From contig NZ_CP069526.1 of NCBI RefSeq assembly GCF_016889705.1, positions 3,968,001-4,032,000 of the forward strand: a stretch of 64,000 bases of DNA, in the 5' to 3' direction. Source of the stretch: Amycolatopsis sp. FDAARGOS 1241. Its GTDB lineage: Bacteria; Actinomycetota; Actinomycetes; Mycobacteriales; Pseudonocardiaceae. This document shows positions 46,696-58,884 of this stretch, one piece after another. Within the stretch, counting starts at the first letter, position 1; each line of letters opens with the position of its first letter. A program made the position numbers and the translations under genes. Under the pieces are notes generated by a model, which saw only the letters and a list, made by a program, of their open reading frames with translations, searched no databases and was not told the origin of the DNA.

Positions 46696-48327
46696 TCAAT
46701 GCCCGAACGCTTCCGCCAGCCACCACGCGCCCCCGTCGTCGGCGAGTTTCGCGTCGATCACCAGGGGGGTGTCGCGGGGGCCGTCGAGCCAGTTCGTGAC
46801 CGGGGCCAGGTCCTCGACGCTCCGGACGGTGATCCCGGTGCAGCCGAAGCCGCGGGCGATCGCCGCGATGTCGGTGTCCGGGAAGCGCACCGCGTCGTGG
46901 TCGGCGTCGCCGAAGTGGTGCACTTCGGCGCCGTACGCGGCGTCGTTGTACACGATCACCACCAGGGGAAGGCCGAGCCGCACCGCGGTCTCCAGTTCGG
47001 AGATCGCCATGTGGAATCCGCCGTCGCCGGCGGCGAGCACGGGCAGGCGGTCCGGGCGGGCCAGCGCGGCGCCGATCGCCGTCCCCAGCCCGAGGCCGAC
47101 GCACTGGTAGGCCTGCGTGAAGCAGAACCCGTTCTCGTCCGGCACCGACAGGTACGCGCTCGGGTAGCCCATGAAGTTCCCGGAGTCGACCGACACGATG
47201 CGCTGCCGCGGGAGCAGTTCGTCCAGCCGGGCGCTGAGCGTCCGCGCGTCGATGCGCCCGCCGCCGGAGCGGTCGTCGTGGCGCACGTTGTTCCACCGCA
47301 CCTGAGCCAGCCGCGCGGCGAGCTCCGGGCCGCGGTAGCCGGCGGCGCGGTGGCCGCGTTCCTCCAGCAGCTCCAGCACATCGACGGCGGTCGCGGCGAC
47401 GTCGCCGACCACGCCGAGGTGCACCGGCCGGTGCGCGCCCAGCGCGGCCTCCTCGCGGTCCACCTGCACGAGCCGCGCCTGCGGGCCGATCAGCTTGCCG
47501 TGGCGCGTGGTCCACATGTTCAACGCGCAGCCCCAGCCCACGATCAGGTCGGCCTCCGCGATCAGCTCCGCGGTCAGCGGCGACGAAAAGCCGCCGCTGA
47601 TCCCGAGCGACCATGGATCGTCGTGGAAGAGGCCGTTGGCCACGGCCGACGTCGCGAGCAGCGCGCCGGTCACGTCGCCCAGCGCCCGCAACGGCGCGGC
47701 CTGGCCCCGTGCGCCTCGGCCCGCGATGAACACGGGCCGCCGCGCCCCGGCGAGCAGGCCCGCCAGCTCGTCGGCCACCGCGGTCGCCGGCCGGACCGGC
47801 GCGGGACCGGCGAGATCCGGCACCGCGCCGGGGGCCGGCGCGTCCTGCGCCTGCACGTCGAGCGGCAGGCTCAGCACCACCGTCCGGTTCTCCTGGCGCG
47901 CCGTGCGGAACGCCCGGACCGTGTCGGCGAACGCCGTGTCGGCCGAGTGGACGCGGGCGGCCGTCGCGCCCACCGCGATGCCGAGCGCGTCCTGGTCGAT
48001 CCGGAAGTTCGACAGCACAGCCGCGGTCGCCGTGTCCGCGGTGACGACGATCATCGGCGTGCGGCTCTTCGCGGCTTCGGTGATCCCGGTGATCGCGTTG
48101 GTCAGCCCGCAGCCCTGGTGCAGGCTGAGCACCGAGACCTGCCCGCTCATCCGTGCGTGCGCGTCGGCCATGCTCGCCGCCCCGCCTTCGTGGCGCGCGG
48201 CGACGAACCGGACGCCCGCGGCGCGCAGCGCGTTGGTCACGTCGAAGTTGCCGCTCCCGACCACGCCGAACGCCATGCCGACGCCGAGATCGGCGAGGGT
48301 GCGCCCGACCAGCTCCGCGACCTTCAC
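46696..48327 (-). CDS. TPP-dependent enzyme, acetolactate synthase/benzoylformate decarboxylase-like
   Basis: 543 residues from GTG 48327, overlapping the cyclase stop by GTGA. PYR domain with RHEGGAASMADAHARMSG (catalytic Glu) and QGCGLTNAITGITEAAKSRTPMIVVTADT; central domain VFIAGRGARGQAAPLRALGDVTGALLAT; PP domain LAAGDGGFHMAISELETAVRLGLPLVVIVYNDAAYGAE. It probably decarboxylates or ligates a 2-oxo acid, or could be a 2-hydroxyacyl-type lyase. Tight coupling to a cyclase-family hydrolase and to the GntR regulator places it in the leftward arm of the mutase locus. Confidence 0.85.
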   Translation of the reverse strand: MKVAELVGRTLADLGVGMAFGVVGSGNFDVTNALRAAGVRFVAARHEGGAASMADAHARMSGQVSVLSLHQGCGLTNAITGITEAAKSRTPMIVVTADTATAAVLSNFRIDQDALGIAVGATAARVHSADTAFADTVRAFRTARQENRTVVLSLPLDVQAQDAPAPGAVPDLAGPAPVRPATAVADELAGLLAGARRPVFIAGRGARGQAAPLRALGDVTGALLATSAVANGLFHDDPWSLGISGGFSSPLTAELIAEADLIVGWGCALNMWTTRHGKLIGPQARLVQVDREEAALGAHRPVHLGVVGDVAATAVDVLELLEERGHRAAGYRGPELAARLAQVRWNNVRHDDRSGGGRIDARTLSARLDELLPRQRIVSVDSGNFMGYPSAYLSVPDENGFCFTQAYQCVGLGLGTAIGAALARPDRLPVLAAGDGGFHMAISELETAVRLGLPLVVIVYNDAAYGAEVHHFGDADHDAVRFPDTDIAAIARGFGCTGITVRSVEDLAPVTNWLDGPRDTPLVIDAKLADDGGAWWLAEAFGH

Positions 48328-49103
48328 GCGCCACGCTCGACGAGCGCGTACACCCGGGCCGGGCTGCCGGACCCGCCGATGATCGGCAGCGGGCTGATCA
48401 CCAGCATCGCTCCGGTCGCGGGCAGGCTCGCGAGGTTCTGCAACTGTGTCAGGCCGAACTTGCCCGCGCCGAGCAGCAGCTCGTGGCACGGGAACGCCGG
48501 GTCGAGCCCGGGCGCCTGACCGGCGTCGGTGCCGACGGTTTCGACGCCCAGCCCGGCGATCGGCGTCTCCTCGGCCAGCCACCGCGCGCACTCGGGCGAG
48601 ATGCCGGGGGTGTGCGAACCGGACTCGTCGGCGTTGAGGAACTCCTCCTGGCCGCCGGAGTGCACGTCCCAGCCGCTGCGGTAGAGCAGCCACGCGCCGG
48701 CCGGCAGCGCGCCGTGCTCGGACTCCCACTCGCGCACGTCGTCGATCGAGAGCAGGAAGTCGGGGTTGCCCTCGGCTTTCGCCGACGCGTCGAGCACCAC
48801 TGCGGGCGCGATCAATGTCCGCAGCGGCGCCTGGGAAACGTCCAGACCGTCCTTTCCGGACACCCAGTGCACCGGCGCGTCGAAGTGGGTGCCGGTGTGC
48901 TCACCGGTGTGGATGTCGTTCCAGTACCAGCGCGGGCCGCGCTCGTCGTAGCGGCTGATCTCTTCGAGCCGGAACGGGATCGTGTTCGCGAACGGCTCGG
49001 GCAGTTGCAGGATCGGGGTCGTGGAGCTCAGCGGTGCGGTGAGGTCGACGACCTCGATCCCACCCCCGGTGATCGCCGCGTTCAGATCGGCCAGCAACGA
49101 CAT
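48324..49103 (-). CDS. Cyclase-family metal-dependent hydrolase (kynurenine formamidase-like)
   Basis: 259 residues. The Cyclase/KynB signature HTGTHFDAPVHW (metal His/Asp) is preceded by VVDLTAPLSSTTPILQLPEPF and followed by LLYRSGWD and a late ETVGTDAGQAPGLDPAFPCHELLLGAGKFGLTQLQNLASLP. Members hydrolyse amides, lactones or cyclic esters with Zn or Mn. Coupled to a TPP enzyme by a 4-bp overlap and preceded by a GntR regulator. The pair may open a cyclic precursor and then cleave the product, but the substrate is unknown. Confidence 0.88.
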   Translation of the reverse strand: MSLLADLNAAITGGGIEVVDLTAPLSSTTPILQLPEPFANTIPFRLEEISRYDERGPRWYWNDIHTGEHTGTHFDAPVHWVSGKDGLDVSQAPLRTLIAPAVVLDASAKAEGNPDFLLSIDDVREWESEHGALPAGAWLLYRSGWDVHSGGQEEFLNADESGSHTPGISPECARWLAEETPIAGLGVETVGTDAGQAPGLDPAFPCHELLLGAGKFGLTQLQNLASLPATGAMLVISPLPIIGGSGSPARVYALVERGA

Positions 49104-49949: not shown

Positions 49950-49978
49950 AGCGTAAGACAGTCGTGGTCAGACCACAA
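49950..49978 (-). promoter_or_regulatory. Promoter/operator of GntR regulator 1
   Basis: On the minus strand TTGTGG (49978-49973), 17 bp, and TACGCT (49955-49950). The 13-bp palindrome GTGGTCAGACCAC (49964-49976) overlaps the -35 box and spacer and matches the FadR consensus TGGTCNGACCA. Confidence 0.65.
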
Positions 49979-49987
49979 TGTGGACTG

Positions 49988-51046
49988 CTACGGATGGAGC
50001 ACGTGACAGCGAACCGGCAGGTCCAGTTCGTCGGCCAGTGGCGCGAAGAACGCCTCGACGGCCGGGTCGTCGACCTCGGCGAGCGTGCCCGGCCGCCAGC
50101 GCGGCGCGCGGTCCTTGTCGAGGATCGCGGCGCGGATGCCTTCGGCCAGGTCCGGGTGGCGCAGGAATCGGCTGCACAGCCGGTAGTCCTGCCGCAGGCA
50201 CTGCTCGATCGTCGTCATCTCGCGGGCCGCGCGCACCGCCCGCAGGGTCACCTTCAAGGCCGTGGGCGCCGCGGCGGTGATCGCGGCGACGGTCTCGCGC
50301 GGACCCGGTTCGTCCATCGCCTCGAGGCGGTACAGCACGTCTTCGACGGACGGCGCGTCGCCGTACGCGCGGTCGATCCAGCACCGCGCAGCGGCCAGGG
50401 GCGCCGGGCCGGGATCTTCGGCGTACTTCGTCACCGTGGCTTCGATCGGCGCGCCCGCGGCGAGGTCGCCGACGAGCGCGGGCAACCGGTCCGACGGGAC
50501 GTGGTGATCGGCGAGTCCACAGTGGAGCGCGTCCGCCGCGTCGGCCCGCCCGGCCGTGAGCGCGAGGTGCAGGCCGAGTTCACCGGGCGCGCGGCCGAGC
50601 AGCAGCGCACCGCCGACGTCCGGTGCGAGCCCGATCGCGACCTCCGGCATCGCGAGCACCGAGCGCTCGGTGACCACCCGGACGGGCGCGTGGCCGCCGA
50701 TGCCGAGCCCGCCGCCCATCGTGATGCCGTCCATGAGCGCGACGACCGGTTTCGGGTAGCGGGCGAGCCGAGCGTCGAGCCGGTACTCCTCGCGCCACAG
50801 CGTCAGTGCGATCGCGGGGTCGCCGACCGCCGACGAGTGGACGACGCCGATGTCGCCGCCGGCGCAGAACGCGCGCTCGCCCGCGCCGTCGAGCACGACG
50901 GCGGTCACGGCGGGATCGTCCTCCCACGCGTCGAGCGCGGCGAGCAGCGCGCGGATCATGGCCAGGTCCAGCGCGTTGAGCGCGTCGGGCCGGTTCACCG
51001 TCAGCCGGCCGATCGAGCCCTGCACGCGGGCCAAGACGGTCGTCAC
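49988..51046 (-). CDS. 3-hydroxyisobutyryl-CoA hydrolase-like (enoyl-CoA hydratase superfamily)
   Basis: 352 residues from GTG 51046 (TTG 51055 is possible; neither has a clear ribosome site). The crotonase core includes RPDALNALDLAMIRAL and GAGERAFCAGGDIGVV (oxyanion loop). WREEYRLDARLARYPKPVVALMDGITMGGGLGIG, VLAMPEVAIGLAPDVGG and GELGLHLALTAGRAD are characteristic of HIBCH-type hydrolases of valine degradation rather than simple hydratases. The later C-terminal helices (EQCLRQDYRLCSRFL, HPDLAEGIRAAILDKDRAPRW) agree. Divergent from the mutase operon through a shared operator, so it belongs to the same regulon. Confidence 0.85.
   Translation of the reverse strand: MTTVLARVQGSIGRLTVNRPDALNALDLAMIRALLAALDAWEDDPAVTAVVLDGAGERAFCAGGDIGVVHSSAVGDPAIALTLWREEYRLDARLARYPKPVVALMDGITMGGGLGIGGHAPVRVVTERSVLAMPEVAIGLAPDVGGALLLGRAPGELGLHLALTAGRADAADALHCGLADHHVPSDRLPALVGDLAAGAPIEATVTKYAEDPGPAPLAAARCWIDRAYGDAPSVEDVLYRLEAMDEPGPRETVAAITAAAPTALKVTLRAVRAAREMTTIEQCLRQDYRLCSRFLRHPDLAEGIRAAILDKDRAPRWRPGTLAEVDDPAVEAFFAPLADELDLPVRCHVLHP
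50516..50526. repeat. Copy of the 11-bp palindrome TCCACAGTGGA
   Basis: Exact copy, inside the hydrolase coding sequence. Confidence 0.5.
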
Positions 51047-51106
51047 GCCGGTCAAGTTAGCCACCGCATCCGCCTTTCGTGCAGCCGGGTGGTCCGGGTT
51101 CCAGGG

Positions 51107-51144
51107 TTGCACATCTTGGCCCACCACTTCTATGGTCAGACCAC
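51107..51144 (+). promoter_or_regulatory. Promoter/operator of the mutase operon
   Basis: TTGCAC (51107-51112), 18 bp, TATGGT (51131-51136). The palindrome TGGTCAGACCA (51133-51143) covers the -10 box, so a FadR-type protein bound here should block transcription. The same region serves the divergent hydrolase gene. Confidence 0.68.
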
Positions 51145-51180
51145 ATGAAAGGACGACCAGCGGAGCGGAGAGTGGACACG

Positions 51181-51603
51181 GTGGGTGACAGCGGCGGTGA
51201 ACCGATCCGGGTGATGCTGGCCAAGATCGGGCTCGACGGGCACGACCGGGGCGTGAAGGTCGTCGCGCGGACGCTGCGCGACGCGGGCATGGAGGTGATC
51301 TACACCGGCCTGCACCGCAGCCCCGAGCAGGTGCTCGAAGCGGCCGTGCAGGAAGACGTCGACGTGCTCGGCGTCAGCCTGCTCTCGGGCGCGCACATGC
51401 CGATCTTCACGCGCATCTTCGAGCTGATCGACGCGATGCCCGACCGGCCGCGGTTCGCGATCGTCGCGGGCGGCGTGATGCCGGACGAGGACGAGGAAGC
51501 GCTCAAGAAGATGGGCGTCGCCGACGTGCTCGGCCAGGACACCACCCCGGAGACGATCGTCGACCGCGTGCGCGAACTGGCCGCCGTGGCGGGTGAGGCC
51601 TGA
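51181..51603 (+). CDS. hcmB: 2-hydroxyisobutyryl-CoA mutase small, B12-binding subunit
   Basis: 140 residues from GTG 51181 (GGAGAG 8 bp upstream); GTG 51172 and ATG 51145 are in-frame alternatives. B12-binding Rossmann-like domain with the base-off signature GLDGHDRGVKVV (D19, H21, G24; His displaces the lower axial base), DVLGVSLLSGAH, and AIVAGGVMPDEDEEALKKMG. Works with the large subunit at 54034 as a two-subunit acyl-CoA mutase. First gene of a five- to six-gene operon coupled by overlapping stops and starts. Confidence 0.92.
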   Translation: MGDSGGEPIRVMLAKIGLDGHDRGVKVVARTLRDAGMEVIYTGLHRSPEQVLEAAVQEDVDVLGVSLLSGAHMPIFTRIFELIDAMPDRPRFAIVAGGVMPDEDEEALKKMGVADVLGQDTTPETIVDRVRELAAVAGEA

Positions 51604-53051
51604 TGGACCCGAGGAAGTCGATGGAGCCGGCGAACGCGGTGAGCCCCATGGAACAGTGGAGCTGGCCGCCGCGCTATGACGAGACCTACCGCCCGCCGTC
51701 GGGCCAGGCGTACTGGTTCCCGCGCCGCGAAACCATGCCGGCCGGGGAACGGGACGAGGCGATCCTCGTCCGGATCCGCGAGGTCATGGCCTACGCGTGG
51801 GACCACGCGCCGTTCTACCGGCGCAAGTGGGAAGAGGCGGGCATCCACCCGTCGGCCATCCGCGATCTGTCCGACTTCGAGAAGGTCCCGGTGGTGCGCA
51901 AGGAAGAGCTGCGCGCCGACCAGGCCGCCCACGAACCGTTCGGCAGCTACCTCGCGGTGGAGCCGGGCGAGGTCAAGCACGTCAACGGCACGTCCGGCAC
52001 CACCGGGCGCCCCACCGCGTTCGGCATCAGCGAGCGCGACTGGCGCAGCGTCGCCAACGCCCACGCCCGCGTGATGTGGGGGATGGGCATCCGCGAAACC
52101 GACACGGTGCTCGTCGCATCGCCGCTGAGCCTCTACTGGGGTTCCTGGGGTGCCTACATCGGCGCGGAACGGCTCGGCGCCCGCGTCTTCCCGTTCGGCG
52201 CCGGAACACCGGGGCAGACGGCGCGCACGGTGATGTGGATGAAGCAGATGGGCGTCACCGTCTTCTACGGCACCCCGTCCTACGCGCTGCACCTGGCGGA
52301 AGTCGCCGCCGACGAGGGGGTCGACCCCGCGGATTTGGGGCTGCGCAAGCTGTTCTTCTCCGGCGAACCCGGCGCGAGCGTGCCGAGCATCCGCGGCCGG
52401 ATCGAGGAGGCCTTCGGCGCCGAGGTCTACGACTCGGGCAGCATGGCCGAGGTCAGCCCGTGGATGCACCTGGGCGCGGCCAACCACGAGCCGGGCGTGT
52501 TCGCGTGGCAGGACCTCGTCTACACCGAGGTGTGCGACCCGGTCGACCACCACCGCGTGGACTGGGGCCGCGAAGGCACACCGGTCTACACCACGCTCGA
52601 ACGCACCAGCCAGCCGATGATCCGGTTGCTGTCCAACGACCTCACGCGCTGGGAAGCCCCGTCGGCCGACCGCGGCCGCACCTACCCGTTCCTGCCACAG
52701 GGCATCTACGGGCGCATCGACGACATGTTCACCGTGCGCGGCGAAAATGTGTACCCGAGCGCGATCGACGACGTCGTGATGGCCGCCGAGGGCTACGGCG
52801 GTGAGCACCGCATCGTGATCAGCCGCAAGTCCACGATGGACAGCCTCGCCGTGCAGGTCGAGCACCGCGGCGTTGCCGAAGCCGGCCTGGACGGCTGGGC
52901 CAGGGCGATCGAGGACAAGCTGCGCAAGGCGCTGGGCGTCGGCGCGCACGTGGTACCCGTGGAGTACAAGACCTTCGATCGCACGGAGTTCAAGGCCCGG
53001 CGGGTGATCGACGACCGCGACCTGCTGCGCCGCCTCGGAAGTGGGTCGTGA
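51603..53051 (+). CDS. Acyl-CoA ligase (probable 2-hydroxyisobutyrate-CoA ligase, PaaK-like)
   Basis: 482 residues; ATG shares one base with the previous stop (TGATG). Adenylate-forming fold of the phenylacetate-CoA ligase type: P-loop-like GTSGTTGRPT (residues 129-138), ASPLSLYWGSWGAYIGAERLGARVFPFG, LFFSGEPGASVPSIRGRIEEAFGAEVYDSGSMAEV, GRIDDMFTVRGENVYPSAIDDVV and a late FDRTEFKARRV. By position between the two mutase subunits it should activate the mutase substrate acid with ATP and CoA, as the ligase of the Aquincola 2-HIBA pathway does. Substrate is inferred from context. Confidence 0.85.
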   Translation: MDPRKSMEPANAVSPMEQWSWPPRYDETYRPPSGQAYWFPRRETMPAGERDEAILVRIREVMAYAWDHAPFYRRKWEEAGIHPSAIRDLSDFEKVPVVRKEELRADQAAHEPFGSYLAVEPGEVKHVNGTSGTTGRPTAFGISERDWRSVANAHARVMWGMGIRETDTVLVASPLSLYWGSWGAYIGAERLGARVFPFGAGTPGQTARTVMWMKQMGVTVFYGTPSYALHLAEVAADEGVDPADLGLRKLFFSGEPGASVPSIRGRIEEAFGAEVYDSGSMAEVSPWMHLGAANHEPGVFAWQDLVYTEVCDPVDHHRVDWGREGTPVYTTLERTSQPMIRLLSNDLTRWEAPSADRGRTYPFLPQGIYGRIDDMFTVRGENVYPSAIDDVVMAAEGYGGEHRIVISRKSTMDSLAVQVEHRGVAEAGLDGWARAIEDKLRKALGVGAHVVPVEYKTFDRTEFKARRVIDDRDLLRRLGSGS

Positions 53052-54040
53052 AGACGCCGGCCGACGTGGTGCACCGCGTGCTCGCAGGGGAGCACGCGGC
53101 CATCGCGCGGATGCTGACCTTCGTGGAGCGGCGCACCGCGGGCGTCGACGAGGCGCTCGCCGAACTGCACGGCAAGGCGGGCAACGCCCACGTGCTCGGG
53201 CTGACCGGGCCACCCGGCAGCGGCAAGAGCACGCTCGTGACGGCGCTGACCGAGTACTACCGCGAGCAGGGCCGCACCGTGGGCGTCCTGGCGGTGGACC
53301 CGTCCAGCGTGTTCAGCGGTGGCGCGATCCTCGGCGACCGGATCCGCATGACCGGCCTCGCGGGGGACGAGGGTGTGTTCATCCGCTCCATCGCCACCCG
53401 GGGTGCGCTCGGCGGGCTGTCACGCGCGGCGCTCGACGCGATCACCGTGCTGGACGCCGCGGGCAAGGACGTGGTGGTGCTGGAAACCGTCGGTGTCGGG
53501 CAGGCCGAGGTGGACGTGATCAGCGCGGCCCAGACGGTGGCCGTGGTCAGCGTGCCCGGCATGGGCGACGACGTGCAGGCGATCAAGGCCGGGCTGCTGG
53601 AGATCGCCGACGTGCACGTGGTGAACAAGGCCGACCGCGACGGTGCCGCCAAGACCGTGGCCGAGCTGCGCGACATGCTCCGGCTCGCGCACCGCAAACC
53701 GCACCAGTGGAACGTGCCGATCCAGCAGACCGTCGCGGCCACCGGGCAGGGCGTGCCCGAACTCGCCGAGCAGTTCGCCGCGCACCTGCGGTGGATGACC
53801 GAGCACGGCGAACGCGAGCGGCGGGCCCGGCGCACCAGCGCCACCCGCATCCGCTGGGTCGCCGAGCAGCTCGTGCTCGACGGCCTGCGTCCCGGAGTCC
53901 CCGCCTTCGACCGCGCGGTCGACGACGTCGCCGCCCGGCGCGAGGACCCGCTGTCGGCCGCGCGCCGCCTGGTGGGGTGCCCGGGCACGGCCGGGACTTC
54001 GGCTGCGACTTCGACGACCGATGAGGAGGAACTGTGGTGA
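53048..54040 (+). CDS. MeaB/ArgK-type GTPase, mutase chaperone
   Basis: 330 residues from GTG 53048, 4-bp overlap with the ligase. G3E-family P-loop GPPGSGKST (54-62), AVDPSSVFSGGAILGDRIRM, Walker-B-like VVLETVGVGQAEVD, base-recognition NKAD, and a C-terminal dimerisation helix. MeaB/MMAA proteins gate transfer of adenosylcobalamin into mutases and remove damaged cofactor. Encoded directly before the large mutase subunit, so it is dedicated to it (MeaH type). An Ala/Thr/Glu-rich tail precedes the stop. Confidence 0.93.
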   Translation: MKTPADVVHRVLAGEHAAIARMLTFVERRTAGVDEALAELHGKAGNAHVLGLTGPPGSGKSTLVTALTEYYREQGRTVGVLAVDPSSVFSGGAILGDRIRMTGLAGDEGVFIRSIATRGALGGLSRAALDAITVLDAAGKDVVVLETVGVGQAEVDVISAAQTVAVVSVPGMGDDVQAIKAGLLEIADVHVVNKADRDGAAKTVAELRDMLRLAHRKPHQWNVPIQQTVAATGQGVPELAEQFAAHLRWMTEHGERERRARRTSATRIRWVAEQLVLDGLRPGVPAFDRAVDDVAARREDPLSAARRLVGCPGTAGTSAATSTTDEEELW

Positions 54041-55752
54041 ACGAGCACGACCCGGTCCCGGATGAACGAGCACTGGCGACCAAGGCGCTCGTCGACGCGG
54101 TCACGCGGGAACTCAGCGACTGGGAGGGTGACGAGCTCGCCGGGTTCATCCGGCGCCAGCCCGAATCGCGTGACGTCTACCGCTCGGGCAGCGGGATGGA
54201 GGTCGAGCGCGTCTACACGCCGGCCGACCTGCCGGCCGACTGGCACGACATCGGCCTGCCCGGCCGCTACCCCTACACCCGCGGGCCGTACCCGACGATG
54301 TACCGCGGCCGCATCTGGACGATGCGCCAGATCGCTGGCTTCGGGCAGGCGGAGGAGACGAACAAGCGCTTCCAGTACCTCATCGCCCAGGGCCAGACCG
54401 GTCTGTCGGTCGACTTCGACATGCCGACGCTGATGGGCCTCGACAGCGACGACCCGATGAGCCTCGGCGAGGTCGGGCGCGAGGGCGTCGCGATCGACAC
54501 GCTGCCCGACATGGAGGCGCTGTTCGACGGCATCGACCTCGAGCAGATCAGCGTGTCGATGACGATCAACCCGTCGGCGTGGATCCTGCTCGCCATGTAC
54601 GTCGCCGTGGCCGAGGAGCGCGGCTACGACCTGAACAAGCTCTCGGGGACGATCCAGAACGACATCCTCAAGGAGTACGTGGCGCAGAAGGAGTGGGTGT
54701 TCCCGGTCCGGCCGAGCATGCGGATCGTGCGCGACACCATCGTCTACTGCAGCGAGCGCATGGCGCGCTACAACCCCGTGAACATCTCCGGCTACCACAT
54801 CAGCGAAGCCGGGGCGAACGCGCTGCAGGAGATCGCGTTCACGATGGCGATCACCAAGGCTTACGTGGAGGATGTCGTCGCGACCGGCGTCGACGTGGAC
54901 CAGTTCGCGTCGCGGCTGTCGTTCTTCTTCGTCAGCCAGGCGGATCTGTTCGAAGAGGTCGCGAAGTTCCGCGCGGTGCGGCGGTTCTACGCGAAGATGA
55001 TGAAGGAGACCTTCGGCGCGCAGAACCCGCAGTCGATGCGGCTGCGGTTCCACGCGCAGACGGCGGCGGCCACGCTCACGAAACCGCAGCCGCTCAACAA
55101 CATCATCCGCACCGCGCTGCAGGCCCTGTCGGCTGTGCTCGGCGGCGCGCAGTCCTTGCACACCAACGGGCTCGACGAGGCGTACACGATCCCGAGCGAG
55201 CAGGCGATGAAGGTCGCGCTGCGCACCCAGCAGATCATCGCCGACGAAACCGGCGTGACGAGCGTGATCGACCCGCTCGGCGGCTCGTTCTACGTCGAGA
55301 ACCTCACCGACCGCCTCGAAGCGGGGATCCACGACTACTTCGCGAAGATCGAGGAGCTCGGCGGCGTGGTCGCGGCGATCGAGCAGGGGTTCTTCCAGCG
55401 CGAGATCTCCGACACCGCCTACGCGTTCGCGCGTCGCAAGGCGAGCGGCGACCGGCCCGTGATCGGCGTGAACAAGTACGTCGACGAGGGCCAGGGCGAG
55501 AAGATCGAAACGCACAAGCTCGACCCGGAATCCGAGGCCCGGCAGCTCGCACGGCTCAAGCAGGTGCGCGCCGACCGGGACCCCGACCGGGCGAAGGCGG
55601 CGATGGAGCAACTGCTCGCCGTGGCGGCCGATCCGTCGGCCAACCTGATGCCGGCGACGGTCGAGGCCGTCAAGGCGCACCTTTCCATGGGAGAGATCAC
55701 GGGCGCGCTGCGTGATGTCTTCGGGTCCTACACCGAAACCCCGGTGTTCTAG
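54034..55752 (+). CDS. hcmA: 2-hydroxyisobutyryl-CoA mutase large subunit
   Basis: 572 residues from GTG 54034 (GTG 54037 equally possible), overlapping the chaperone. Catalytic TIM-barrel domain of AdoCbl-dependent acyl-CoA mutases without a B12 domain, as in two-subunit enzymes. The substrate-selecting positions are decisive: Ile100 in TMRQIAGFG (Tyr in methylmalonyl-CoA mutase, Phe in isobutyryl-CoA mutase), Asp127 in GLSVDFDMPT (Ala in those two) and Gln218 in KEYVAQKEW (Arg in MCM). These equal Ile90/Asp117/Gln208 of Aquincola HcmA. It should convert 2-hydroxyisobutyryl-CoA to 3-hydroxybutyryl-CoA. Highly confident family, strong specificity inference. Confidence 0.93.
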   Translation: MVNEHDPVPDERALATKALVDAVTRELSDWEGDELAGFIRRQPESRDVYRSGSGMEVERVYTPADLPADWHDIGLPGRYPYTRGPYPTMYRGRIWTMRQIAGFGQAEETNKRFQYLIAQGQTGLSVDFDMPTLMGLDSDDPMSLGEVGREGVAIDTLPDMEALFDGIDLEQISVSMTINPSAWILLAMYVAVAEERGYDLNKLSGTIQNDILKEYVAQKEWVFPVRPSMRIVRDTIVYCSERMARYNPVNISGYHISEAGANALQEIAFTMAITKAYVEDVVATGVDVDQFASRLSFFFVSQADLFEEVAKFRAVRRFYAKMMKETFGAQNPQSMRLRFHAQTAAATLTKPQPLNNIIRTALQALSAVLGGAQSLHTNGLDEAYTIPSEQAMKVALRTQQIIADETGVTSVIDPLGGSFYVENLTDRLEAGIHDYFAKIEELGGVVAAIEQGFFQREISDTAYAFARRKASGDRPVIGVNKYVDEGQGEKIETHKLDPESEARQLARLKQVRADRDPDRAKAAMEQLLAVAADPSANLMPATVEAVKAHLSMGEITGALRDVFGSYTETPVF

Positions 55753-55815: not shown

Positions 55816-57501
55816 GTGTACCAGCAGGTTCCCGCGCCACTCGGTGGCAGCCTCGGCTGGTCCGCCCTCGTGTCCGCCCTGCCCCTGCTCGTGCTGTTCG
55901 TGCTGCTGGGCGTGTTCCGCGTCCGCGCCTGGCTGGCCTCGCTCATCGCGCTGGCGCTGTCCATCGTGGGTGCGATCGCGGTGTACGGCATGCCGGCGGG
56001 ACCGGCGTTCGACTCCGCGCTCGAAGGCGCGGCGTTCGGCCTGTTCCCCGCGCTGTGGATCGTGCTCAACTCCCTGTGGATCTACCAGATGACGAAGGTG
56101 TCCGGGCACTTCGACGTGCTGCGGCGCACCTTCGCGAAGATCAGTGACGACCAGCGCGTGCAGGGGGTGATCATCGCCTTTTCGTTCGGTGCGCTGCTGG
56201 AGGCGCTCGCCGGGTTCGGGGCGCCGGTCGCGATCTGTTCGGTGATGCTCGTGGCGGTCGGGCTGAAACCGCTGAAGGCGGCCACGGTCGCGCTCATCGC
56301 CAACACCGCGCCCGTCGCGTACGGCGCCGTGGCGCTGCCCGTGATCACGCTCGCCAAGGTGACCGGCCTGCCACTGCACGACCTCGCGGCCATGACCGGC
56401 CGGCAGGTGCCGATCCTCGCGCTGATCGTGCCGCTGGTGCTCGTGATCGTGCTGGACGGGCGGCGCGGGCTGCGGCAGGCGTGGCCCGCGGCGATCGTGT
56501 GCGGCGTGAGCTTCGCGGTCGTGCAGTACCTGATGGCGAACTTCGGCCCGGTGCAGCTGACAGACATCGCGGCGTCGCTGGTGTCCGCGGCGGCCGTGCT
56601 CGTGCTGCTGCGGTTCTGGAAGCCGAAGCCGGCGGACGCGCCGGACCGGGCACCCGGCGATGGCGGCACGGCGCCCGTACCGAGCGGGCCCGGCTCCGGC
56701 GGCGGCGCGGTCACCGCGGCCGCGGCGACGACGGCGGTGCGGGAGCGGACCGTCGTGGACTCGCGGGCCGACCAGGTTCGCTCGTTCGCGCCATACGCGA
56801 CGATCATCGTGCTGTTCTCGGTGGCCGCGATCCCGGTGGTGGCCGCGGCACTCGCGTCGACGACGAAGACGTTCAGCCGGCCCGGCCTGCACATCGTGAC
56901 GGCCGAGGGTAAACCGCTGAGCCTGGTGTCGTACAAGTTCGACTGGCTCGCCGACAGCGGCACGGTGCTGTTCATCGCCGGGGTCGTGTCGGCGTTCCTG
57001 CTCAAGGTGCCGCTGCGGGAGGCGGTGCGTGCGTACGGGCAGACGGTCGTGCAGCTGCGCACGGCCGGGCTCACGGTGATGGCGGTGCTCGCGCTCGCCT
57101 ACGTGATGAACATGTCCGGGCAGACGGCCACGCTCGGGCTGTTCCTCGCCGGTGCCGGTGGACTGTTCGCGCTGCTGTCGCCGCTGCTCGGCTGGTTCGG
57201 CACCGCGGTGACGGGTTCGGACACGTCGTCGAACTCGCTCTTCGGCGCTTTGCAGGTCGCGGCCGCGCACGGCGCGCAGCTGCAGCCGGTGCTGATGGCG
57301 GCGGCGAACAGCAGCGGCGGCGTCCTCGGGAAGATGATCAGCCCGCAGAACCTCGCGATCGGCGCCAGCGCGGTGGGGCTGGCCGGCAAGGAGGGCCTGC
57401 TGTTCCGGCGGGTGCTCGCCGCTTCGGCGGTGTTCGTGCCGCTGATGTGCATCCTCGTGTTCCTGCAGTCCACCCCGGTGCTGTCGTGGATGGTGCCGTG
57501 A
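55816..57501 (+). CDS. L-lactate permease family (LctP) transporter
   Basis: 561 residues from GTG 55816 with GGAGGT. About 13-14 membrane helices. LctP hallmarks: LWIVLNSLWIYQMTKVSGHFDVLRR, FGALLEALAGFGAPVAICSVMLVAVG, NTAPVAYGAVALPVITLAKVTGL, GWFGTAVTGSDTSSNSLFGALQ and NSSGGVLGKMISPQNLAIGASA. A Pro/Ala-rich loop (about 275-310) is an insertion between helices. Proton symporter for 2-hydroxy acids; next to the mutase it most likely imports 2-hydroxyisobutyrate, a 2-methyl lactate. Confidence 0.92.
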   Translation: MYQQVPAPLGGSLGWSALVSALPLLVLFVLLGVFRVRAWLASLIALALSIVGAIAVYGMPAGPAFDSALEGAAFGLFPALWIVLNSLWIYQMTKVSGHFDVLRRTFAKISDDQRVQGVIIAFSFGALLEALAGFGAPVAICSVMLVAVGLKPLKAATVALIANTAPVAYGAVALPVITLAKVTGLPLHDLAAMTGRQVPILALIVPLVLVIVLDGRRGLRQAWPAAIVCGVSFAVVQYLMANFGPVQLTDIAASLVSAAAVLVLLRFWKPKPADAPDRAPGDGGTAPVPSGPGSGGGAVTAAAATTAVRERTVVDSRADQVRSFAPYATIIVLFSVAAIPVVAAALASTTKTFSRPGLHIVTAEGKPLSLVSYKFDWLADSGTVLFIAGVVSAFLLKVPLREAVRAYGQTVVQLRTAGLTVMAVLALAYVMNMSGQTATLGLFLAGAGGLFALLSPLLGWFGTAVTGSDTSSNSLFGALQVAAAHGAQLQPVLMAAANSSGGVLGKMISPQNLAIGASAVGLAGKEGLLFRRVLAASAVFVPLMCILVFLQSTPVLSWMVP

Positions 57502-57920
57502 ACCGGGCGGTGGCGAGCGACGCCGTGGAGGAGGCCAACTCCGCGATCGGCGCGGCCGTCTCCACGTGCTCGCTGCCGGCCGCCGACGAAGCGGTGCTGC
57601 TGGAGGTGCAGTACGAGCTGATCGAGCTCGCCGAGGCCCTCGCCGCGGGAATGCCGGTGCCGCAGCTGCCGCGGCTGTGGCGAGCCGCGCGGGACCACGG
57701 CGGTGTCGTGGTCCCGCGCGGGTTCGCGGTACTGGGTGGGCTCAGCGCCGCGGCCGGGCTGCTGAAACTCGCGCGGGCGGTGCTGCGCCGGGCCGCGCGG
57801 GAGGCGCCGGACGACGCTGCGGCCGTCCTCGACCGGGTGAGTGAGGTCCTGCTGGCCTTCGCGTTCCGCGCGGAGGAGCACGAACGGTCGCTCGGGTTCG
57901 TCGGGTCCTGTGCCGACTAG
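57498..57920 (+). CDS. Short, divergent PduO-like cob(I)alamin adenosyltransferase-like protein
   Basis: 140 residues from GTG 57498, overlapping the permease stop. Two PduO-type segments are recognisable: VEEANSAIGAAVS (usual VDELNAAIG), LLEVQYELIELAEALAAG (usual VQNDLFDLGADLA), and VVPRGFAVLGGLSAAAGLLKLARAVLRRAAREA with VLDRVSEVLLAFAFRAEEH (usual LPGGSPAAAALHVARTVCRRAER...LNRLSDLLFVLAR). The N-terminal ATP loop (TKTGDDGTT) is absent and the RRAER glutamate is Ala. It may therefore bind, rather than make, adenosylcobalamin. Location in the mutase operon fits a cofactor-handling role. Confidence 0.7.
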   Translation: MNRAVASDAVEEANSAIGAAVSTCSLPAADEAVLLEVQYELIELAEALAAGMPVPQLPRLWRAARDHGGVVVPRGFAVLGGLSAAAGLLKLARAVLRRAAREAPDDAAAVLDRVSEVLLAFAFRAEEHERSLGFVGSCAD

Positions 57921-57922
57921 TG

Positions 57923-57977
57923 TGGTCATACCAACAAAGAGGTCATATTGACACTACCGGCGAGCTCCGATTACCTT
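57923..57977 (+). promoter_or_regulatory. Operator and promoter of the riboswitch-gntR2 transcript
   Basis: TGGTCATACCA (57923-57933), a variant of the two upstream TGGTCAGACCA sites, is followed by TTGACA (57948-57953), 18 bp, and TACCTT (57972-57977). Predicted start near 57984, just where the riboswitch begins. Confidence 0.65.
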
Positions 57978-57980
57978 GAG

Positions 57981-58085
57981 TGAGCACTACGCGGTGAAGA
58001 GGAACTCCGGTGAGATTCCGGGCCGGTCGCGCCACTGTGATCGGACCCCGCCCGGCGGGGTCCGCAGGCAGACCCTCTCGCCGCG
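57981..58085 (+). promoter_or_regulatory. Cobalamin riboswitch (RF00174-like)
   Basis: Conserved elements occur in order: AGAGGAA, then CCGGTGAGATTCCGG (58007-58021), the B12 box GCGCCACTGTGA (58029-58040), a variable-arm hairpin GGACCCCGC/GCGGGGTCC (58043-58063) and the 3' element GGCAGACC (58067-58074). These match the class-I adenosylcobalamin riboswitch core (GGGAA, GGTGAnnATCC, GCCACTG, AGACC). It starts right after the promoter and leads into a leader ORF and the GntR gene. A C-rich strand at 58073-58079 might partly pair with GAGGAGG (58114-58120). The GntR gene is the first full gene downstream. Confidence 0.82.
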
Positions 58086-58123
58086 TCCATCCTTGAGCGG
58101 GTCGCACGAACCCGAGGAGGAGC

Positions 58124-58159
58124 GTGACCATCATGGGGATGTCGAGGGACCCGTCATGA
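58124..58159 (+). CDS. 11-codon leader ORF coupled to gntR2
   Basis: GTG 58124 preceded by GAGGAGG (58114-58120) reads 11 codons (VTIMGMSRDPS) and stops at TGA 58157-58159, overlapping the ATG of the regulator (ATGA). Translation of the regulator could depend on translation of this leader, which sits immediately after the riboswitch. Confidence 0.5.
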   Translation: MTIMGMSRDPS

Positions 58160-58884
58160 CGTCCGAGGCGGCCTGGGAGCCGGTCCGCCGAGTGCGGATG
58201 CACGAACAGGTGCTGGCGCAGATCGAGGAGAAGATCCTCGACGGGAGCCTGCGCGCGGGGGAGAAGCTGCCCAGCGAACGGGAACTCGTGAGCGCGCTCG
58301 GCGTGAGCCGCACCAGCGTCCGCGAAGCCCTGCGCGCCCTCGAGGCGATGGGGATCATCGAGGCCCGCACGGGTTCGGGCGCCGACGCCGGGTCGGTCGT
58401 CACCGCGCGCTCCACCCCGGCGCTGACCAATCTGCTGCGGCTGCACCTCGCGCTCGCCCGCATCAGCCTGGCCGACTTGGTCGAGACGCGCGTTCAGCTG
58501 GAGCGCAACGCGGCCCGCGGCGCCGCGGCGAGCCGCACGCCCGAGGACGTGGCCAGGCTGACGGGGCTCGTCGACGGCATGCGCGCGGCGGACCAGGAAT
58601 ACCAGCAGTTCAACGCGCTGGACACCGAATTCCACGTGAGCATCGCCCGCATCTCGGGCAACGCGCTGGCCACCGACCTGATGCAGGCGCTGCGCGGCGC
58701 CGTCGAGTCGGAGATGGCGGCGGCGTTCGCGCGGCTGCCCGACTGGCGCGCCGTCGCGGGCGACCTGGTGACGGAGCACGAGGCGATCCTGCGCGCCATC
58801 GAGGCCGGCGACGGGGATCGCGCGGCCGACCTCGTGGCCGACCACATCACCCGCTTCTACCAGGACCGCGTGCTCAACCCCTGA
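58156..58884 (+). CDS. FadR-subfamily GntR regulator 2, under a cobalamin riboswitch
   Basis: 242 residues from ATG 58156 (GAGGGA 6 bp upstream; also coupled to the leader ORF). Winged helix with MHEQVLAQIEEKILDGSLRAGEKLPSERELVSALGVSRTSVREALRALEAMGIIEARTGSG; FCD domain with LLRLHLALARISLADLVETRVQLERNAARGAA, FHVSIARISGNALATDLMQAL and TEHEAILRAIEAGDGDRAADLVADHI. Paralogous to regulator 1. Operator-like TGGTCATACCA lies at its promoter and TGGTCAGACCA at the mutase promoter, so it probably represses both. Control by a B12 riboswitch is unusual for a GntR regulator. Confidence 0.9.
   Translation: MTSEAAWEPVRRVRMHEQVLAQIEEKILDGSLRAGEKLPSERELVSALGVSRTSVREALRALEAMGIIEARTGSGADAGSVVTARSTPALTNLLRLHLALARISLADLVETRVQLERNAARGAAASRTPEDVARLTGLVDGMRAADQEYQQFNALDTEFHVSIARISGNALATDLMQALRGAVESEMAAAFARLPDWRAVAGDLVTEHEAILRAIEAGDGDRAADLVADHITRFYQDRVLNP

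Follow-up and report, generated by a model that had tools for sequence, protein, structure and literature searches.

The usual reading of a riboswitch is that it puts a direct brake on uptake or synthesis. In Listeria monocytogenes pocR, as described in PMC9943018, an antisense-RNA B12 riboswitch acts by transcription termination and B12 switches on a B12-dependent pathway. With the EutX/Rli55 small RNA of Enterococcus and Listeria, AdoCbl induces AdoCbl-dependent enzymes via a regulator (PMC5821096). The M. tuberculosis ppe2 riboswitch is reported to switch translation OFF and to have a uORF with an AUGA overlap, which is needed for expression by termination-reinitiation (PMC11260477). Bacterial hcm/hcl clusters are described as uniting hcmAB or rcmAB with meaH, hcl and, in most cases, a gene of the GntR family (PMC7176365).

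The locus considered here, part of a 64,000-nucleotide stretch of the Amycolatopsis sp. FDAARGOS 1241 genome (hereafter, the window; Table 1), resembles each of these systems in part. As with pocR, a B12 riboswitch would act via a transcription factor and B12 would turn on a B12-dependent pathway, but, according to PMC9943018, the pocR riboswitch lies antisense to an activator gene, whereas the present one belongs to the sense leader of a gene presumed to encode a repressor and has an SD-occluding platform. EutX/Rli55 sequesters the response regulator EutV (PMC5821096), while here it is the making of the repressor that would be switched. With ppe2 the locus shares an SD within an L13-bearing hairpin and a uORF whose stop overlaps the start of the gene; in PMC11260477, however, the riboswitch acts on ppe2, whose function is uncertain, with no repressor and no inversion, whereas here its target is a predicted repressor. 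The grouping of mutase, ligase and chaperone genes with a GntR gene recalls the hcm/hcl clusters; the word riboswitch is absent from PMC7176365, according to which the strain studied lacks the mutase.

The initial annotation had proposed that B12 shuts off a repressor and so induces a B12-requiring enzyme, called this the reverse of the standard logic and knew of no described case of a B12 riboswitch driving a mutase repressor. The logic itself has precedents: B12 turns on B12-dependent genes in pocR and EutX/Rli55, and leader-ORF coupling is likewise already known from ppe2. For a riboswitch on a mutase repressor no precedent was found in open PMC full text: among the matches listed there, no title or abstract opening reports that a GntR repressor or a mutase regulator is under a B12 riboswitch (subscription literature and preprints lay outside the scope), and the open PMC text that names cobalamin riboswitch, GntR and mutase together does so with riboswitch and GntR in separate passages. 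Nor did the open PMC matches listed include a catabolic repressor gene with a B12 riboswitch on its sense strand.

Table 1. Features of the mutase–gntR1 locus, in window coordinates.
Feature	Position	Strand	Basis
gntR2, second GntR/FCD-like gene, divergent recognition helix	49174-49881	-	45% identical to gntR1; perfect operator upstream
Operator TGGTCAGACCA upstream of gntR2	49965-49975	.	exact match
Mutase operon promoter, -35 TTGCAC (51107-51112), -10 TATGGT (51131-51136)	51107-51136	+	by eye; similar in relatives
Operator TGGTCAGACCA over apparent mutase -10 box	51133-51143	.	exact match; TATGGTC in relatives
hcmB-like B12-binding mutase subunit	51172-51603	+	PF02310; PDB 4r3u_C 173 bits; start inferred from SD
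Acyl-CoA ligase (position of 2-HIBA-CoA ligase)	51603-53051	+	PF00501, PF14535
MeaB GTPase chaperone	53048-54040	+	PF03308; TIGR00750 above cut-off
hcmA-like large mutase subunit	54034-55752	+	PDB 4r3u_A 791 bits
LctP-family permease	55816-57501	+	PF02652; TIGR00795 above cut-off
PduO-type cobalamin adenosyltransferase-like protein	57498-57920	+	PF01923 32 bits vs cut-off 24, partial profile; start inferred
Operator TGGTCATACCA upstream of riboswitch promoter	57923-57933	.	sequence match
gntR1 promoter TTGACA-N17-TTACCT	57948-57976	+	by eye; conserved in near relatives
AdoCbl-type riboswitch	57976-58124	+	RF01482 40.5 bits; covariation; P2 arms 57989-57997 and 58078-58086
Expression platform: P13 hairpin, L13 CGCACGA, SD GAGGAGGAG (58114-58122)	58091-58122	+	P13 covariation; local folds
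Leader ORF, 11 aa, TGA overlapping gntR1 ATG	58124-58159	+	sequence; RTGA overlap in relatives
gntR1, GntR/FCD (FadR-subfamily) regulator, 242 aa	58156-58884	+	PF00392, PF07729; nearest solved chain 2di3_A

Searching 390 genomes of the family (Pseudonocardiaceae) with the GntR1 protein gave 95 with E <= 1e-40, of which the best 14, the window included, were used (54-100% identity). A model built from four leader sequences (R1) places an aptamer before gntR1 in 11 of these 14 loci, the four model sequences being among the 11; by their labels, the aptamer-bearing genomes are spread over five genera. At 16 weaker loci (L025-L040) R1 had no match above 11 bits, and the weak matches at paralogue loci (L026, 10.7 bits, E 0.17; L040, 8.3 bits, E 0.83) were treated as noise. 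The core GGAA, GGTGA, GCCACTGTGA and the B12 box form invariant columns across the 11 sequences and lie in fixed helices.

Judged from its sequence, the element of the window is a cobalamin-type riboswitch whose nearest Rfam family is RF01482 (AdoCbl), the best Rfam match (E 1.3e-4 in 14 kb scanned), although its 40.5 bits remain short of the gathering score of 50. In 10 relatives RF01482 matches range from 32.6 to 51.6 bits, one passing the gathering score and nine lying below; the 51.6 bits belong to L022, an aligned homologue of the window element. Since the window's own score is under gathering, membership in RF01482 and clan CL00101 is claimed by homology, and the comparative data suggest that the low score is a fault of the threshold and not of the element. 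All riboswitch core elements quoted by the initial annotation are present at the place and in the order given, and its call of a cobalamin riboswitch stands, as does the expected conservation upstream of orthologous gntR genes; the element is nearer to RF01482 than to RF00174, the family named there for the check, with both under gathering. It had made the call depend on an RF00174 match above the gathering score, and the match found has 22.8 bits against 31.5. We set this result aside because 11 of 14 orthologous loci carry the element, with compensatory base-pair changes.

These changes were scored on the 11 aligned leaders over 36 pairs, with 94.1% of cells paired. The covariation score is 0.263, compared with a mean of 0.138 for shuffled alignments, none of the 500 scoring as high, and with 0.064-0.101 when the structure is slid, the latter comparison being favoured by the derivation of the structure from the same alignment. 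Two of the five covariation measures are weak: two-sided changes occur in 11 pairs, a value reached by 13 of 500 shuffles, and the number of additional pair types is unremarkable, being equalled or exceeded in 214 of 500 shuffles. Independently of the alignment, the duplex energies of the P2 arms make the native pairing the best of all 5040 permutations among seven representatives; the four near copies left out of this test (G143, G094, G165 and G254) have G165 as their weakest native P2 duplex, at -10.1 kcal/mol.

In the expression platform, P13 has 100% of cells paired, shows two-sided changes in two of its five pairs and abuts the SD. L5 CGCG is complementary to L13 CGC, and neither varies over the 11 sequences, so this pairing carries no covariation signal. 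In most local folds the SD pairs with the 5′ strand. In unliganded folds of the 11 leaders the main partners of the SD are in the strand just 5′ of P13 in seven sequences and elsewhere in four, the switch is not visible, and the probability of P13 is low in three (0.01-0.17) and 0.40 in one more. A thermodynamic prediction of the direction of switching was dropped, since SD partners differ between sequences and naked folds do not settle it.

The direction can be approached through related riboswitches. A second model, R2, was built from the 11 leaders, whose top ranks in the family (102.8-151 bits) arise by construction and are not evidence; among the matches listed, which had passed stricter filters, the ranks after them start at 95.3 bits. 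The 19 next-ranked loci fetched from these matches, a follow-up that left out the 12th-ranked place and weaker matches, all precede transport genes and none precedes a regulator. Downstream genes contain CbtB, CbtA, CbiM or FecCD according to Pfam at seven of the 19 loci and are CbtB/CbtA-like by eye at the remaining 12. The window's own genome has riboswitch elements above cut-off before cobN and before cbtBA, and the latter shares L5 GGTCGCGCC with the window element, has an L13 with CGCG and places the SD directly after P13. The element is thus like actinobacterial cbtBA/cbiM cobalt-uptake riboswitches in aptamer model, in the kind of L5 and L13 and in its SD-adjacent P13, and unlike them in preceding a regulator and not, directly, uptake genes. 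B12 represses cobalt-uptake genes of the cbtBA/cbiM kind. Because of this common layout we infer by homology that the window riboswitch, which would bind adenosylcobalamin, is most likely an OFF switch.

Downstream of the aptamer, a short leader ORF follows the SD adjoining P13, and its stop overlaps the inferred gntR start (ATGA or GTGA) in 11 of 11 riboswitch loci, several of which offer more than one possible leader ORF start. This RTGA overlap agrees with the coupled leader ORF of the initial annotation, whose promoter before the riboswitch is borne out, by eye, by a promoter-like TTGACA-N17-TTACCT, and whose FadR-type regulator has both GntR winged-helix and FCD domains above cut-off (PF00392, 76.5 bits; PF07729, 87.7 bits). 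A mechanical ORF of 302 aa, running from TTG 57976 through the aptamer, was rejected as a gene model, because in the relatives the leader ORFs are short and gntR has a start of its own. The recognition helix of GntR1 reads SR[TS]SVREALR in 15 of 16 orthologues and SRAGVREAMR in G322; GntR1 is presumed to be a repressor.

Three of the 14 family orthologue loci (G268, G374 and G322) have no aptamer. At G268 a weak match (L049, 13573-13678; 15.9 bits, E 0.057) lies in the right place upstream of gntR and is read as a probable aptamer remnant; at G374 (L052, 13661-13810) the operator, SD and leader ORF are kept and the riboswitch is absent, an apparent natural deletion of the aptamer. The stop/start overlap is GTGA in G268 and TGATG in G374, and there is none in G322. 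Beyond the family, five of 394 class genomes pass E 1e-58 in a wider search and two of 396 phylum genomes have a close mutase, the window's own genome included in both counts. Neither orthologue found outside the family (L006/G905 and G442) has an aptamer; L006 and the contig of G905 (L090), both 7,871 in size, were counted as one record. At E <= 1, nothing resembling the aptamer was matched in the outside loci L084-L087 and L089. It follows from the three family loci and both outside orthologues that the regulator works without the aptamer. On the GntR tree, three to four changes of riboswitch label are needed, 102 of 500 shuffles do equally well and long branches meet, and thus the tree does not separate gain of the riboswitch from loss.

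The genes for the B12-binding subunit, ligase, MeaB and mutase lie directly upstream of gntR1 in 14 of 14 genomes. The large subunit matches 4r3u_A far better than the next, and best methylmalonyl-CoA, mutase (438 bits); with 4r3u as closest solved structure, two subunits and ligase and meaB as neighbours, the enzyme is a predicted 2-hydroxyisobutyryl-CoA mutase (HcmAB). For the first mutase gene, a start at 51145 gave way to GTG 51172 once the promoters of relatives had been compared by eye; scans of this gene used 51145-51603. The diverged PduO-type protein that ends the operon (scanned as 57504-57920) has a GTGA overlap with the permease stop and falls far below the cut-off of TIGR00636; it could provide a local AdoCbl supply or be a non-catalytic relative.

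The matching operator that had been reported at the mutase promoter was confirmed, TGGTCATACCA and TGGTCAGACCA both being present, and the site upstream of gntR2 adds a third to the earlier claim. With one mismatch allowed, the operator pattern has five matches in the window against 1.7 expected, and 3 of 100 shuffles reach five, so the motif alone carries modest weight. The 9.8-Mb genome contains 10 exact copies of TGGTCANACCA and five of the reversed control, three of the 10 lying within 8 kb at this locus. At the mutase promoter, all 14 family loci have the TGGTCNNACC operator overlapping the apparent -10, and TATGGTC, in which operator and apparent -10 are fused, precedes the mutase operon in 14 of 15 loci; the exception is MAG L006, with TGTGGTCAGACC 140 nt upstream of the operon. 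A GGTCNNACC site precedes gntR1 in all 14 family loci (as GGTTAGACC in G268), with a second GGTC half-site ca. 18 nt further on in most relatives. Candidate palindromic sites of the TGGT-N3-ACCA type, which we take to resemble LldR/FadR operators, are thus present and conserved. GntR1 is a better candidate for the shared operator than GntR2 because its recognition helix is conserved and those of GntR2-like proteins vary, and it would probably bind the TGGTCNNACC operator of the mutase operon.

The best reading of the locus, and one in which we have good confidence, is an inverter leading from B12 via a repressor to the mutase, with a translational-OFF AdoCbl riboswitch acting on the leader ORF and gntR1. 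The riboswitch would control translation of the leader ORF, to which gntR1 would be tied by translational coupling across the RTGA overlap. When AdoCbl is scarce, the SD would be free, the leader ORF and gntR1 would be translated, and GntR1 would occupy the TGGTCNNACC operator over the mutase -10 box and keep the operon shut; when AdoCbl is present, the repressor would go untranslated and the B12-dependent mutase operon would be derepressed. Some soil actinobacteria would probably in this way confine a B12-requiring enzyme to times of B12 supply. It is fairly probable, as a whole, that this is a conserved natural NOT gate, in which an AdoCbl OFF riboswitch of the cobalt-uptake kind and a termination-reinitiation leader ORF were recruited before a catabolic repressor, AdoCbl turns on the B12-dependent catabolic operon and the aptamer later disappeared from some lineages.

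Other readings of the same data deserve weight in different degrees. The riboswitch could be real and OFF with GntR2 mainly governing the mutase operon, or with an inducer mostly inactivating GntR1, in which case B12 would fine-tune the induction threshold and there would be no clear inverter. Such a scheme would suit the presence of a GntR2-like gene next to the mutase operon in 13 of 14 loci, 11 of which have an operator match immediately before that gene, and the usual responsiveness of FCD regulators to a metabolite of the pathway. The HTH of GntR2 differs from the GntR1 motif, and the protein is below cut-off for NCBIfam NanR/LldR-like models. We nevertheless consider this scheme unlikely, as the operator is conserved and the GntR2 recognition helix is not, and as G322 has the operators and gntR1 with no GntR2 gene within the 19 kb read; G322 is also the locus with the deviant GntR1 helix. 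GntR2 may antagonize GntR1 or form heterodimers with it.

Less likely again is a circuit of opposite sign, in which GntR1 would be an activator of the operon or the riboswitch an ON switch for translation, so that AdoCbl lowers the mutase or raises the repressor. The position of the operator at gntR1's own promoter, upstream of -35, would suit an activator, but at the mutase promoter it overlaps the apparent -10, and the layout is that of cobalt-uptake switches, for which repression by B12 is expected. That the leader is a decayed or chance cobalamin-like sequence without function would agree with Rfam scores below the gathering thresholds; its invariant core and compensatory changes in 11 genomes of five genera make this highly improbable, and we rejected it on covariation and conservation. 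Should the NOT gate be true, B12 supply, through repressor dosage, and substrate, as the repressor's ligand, would jointly gate the pathway. A repressor under a conserved sense-strand riboswitch would illustrate how an RNA part that can only switch OFF comes to activate cofactor-dependent enzymes with no new aptamer being needed. Such an arrangement would provide a ready-made B12-inducible circuit and a testable rule for annotation, namely to ask what the regulator downstream of a riboswitch controls.

Two neighbouring regions may be mentioned. Genes for a ThDP-dependent enzyme and a cyclase-like protein (46696-49103, minus strand) lie beside the cluster only in the window, G143 and G094; the closest models of the former, sulfoacetaldehyde acetyltransferase and acetolactate synthase, are below cut-off, and by model comparison it is not clearly a 2-hydroxyacyl-CoA lyase. 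A 3-hydroxyisobutyryl-CoA hydrolase-like gene (49988-51127, minus strand) is divergent from the mutase operon, and the intergenic operator could serve both.
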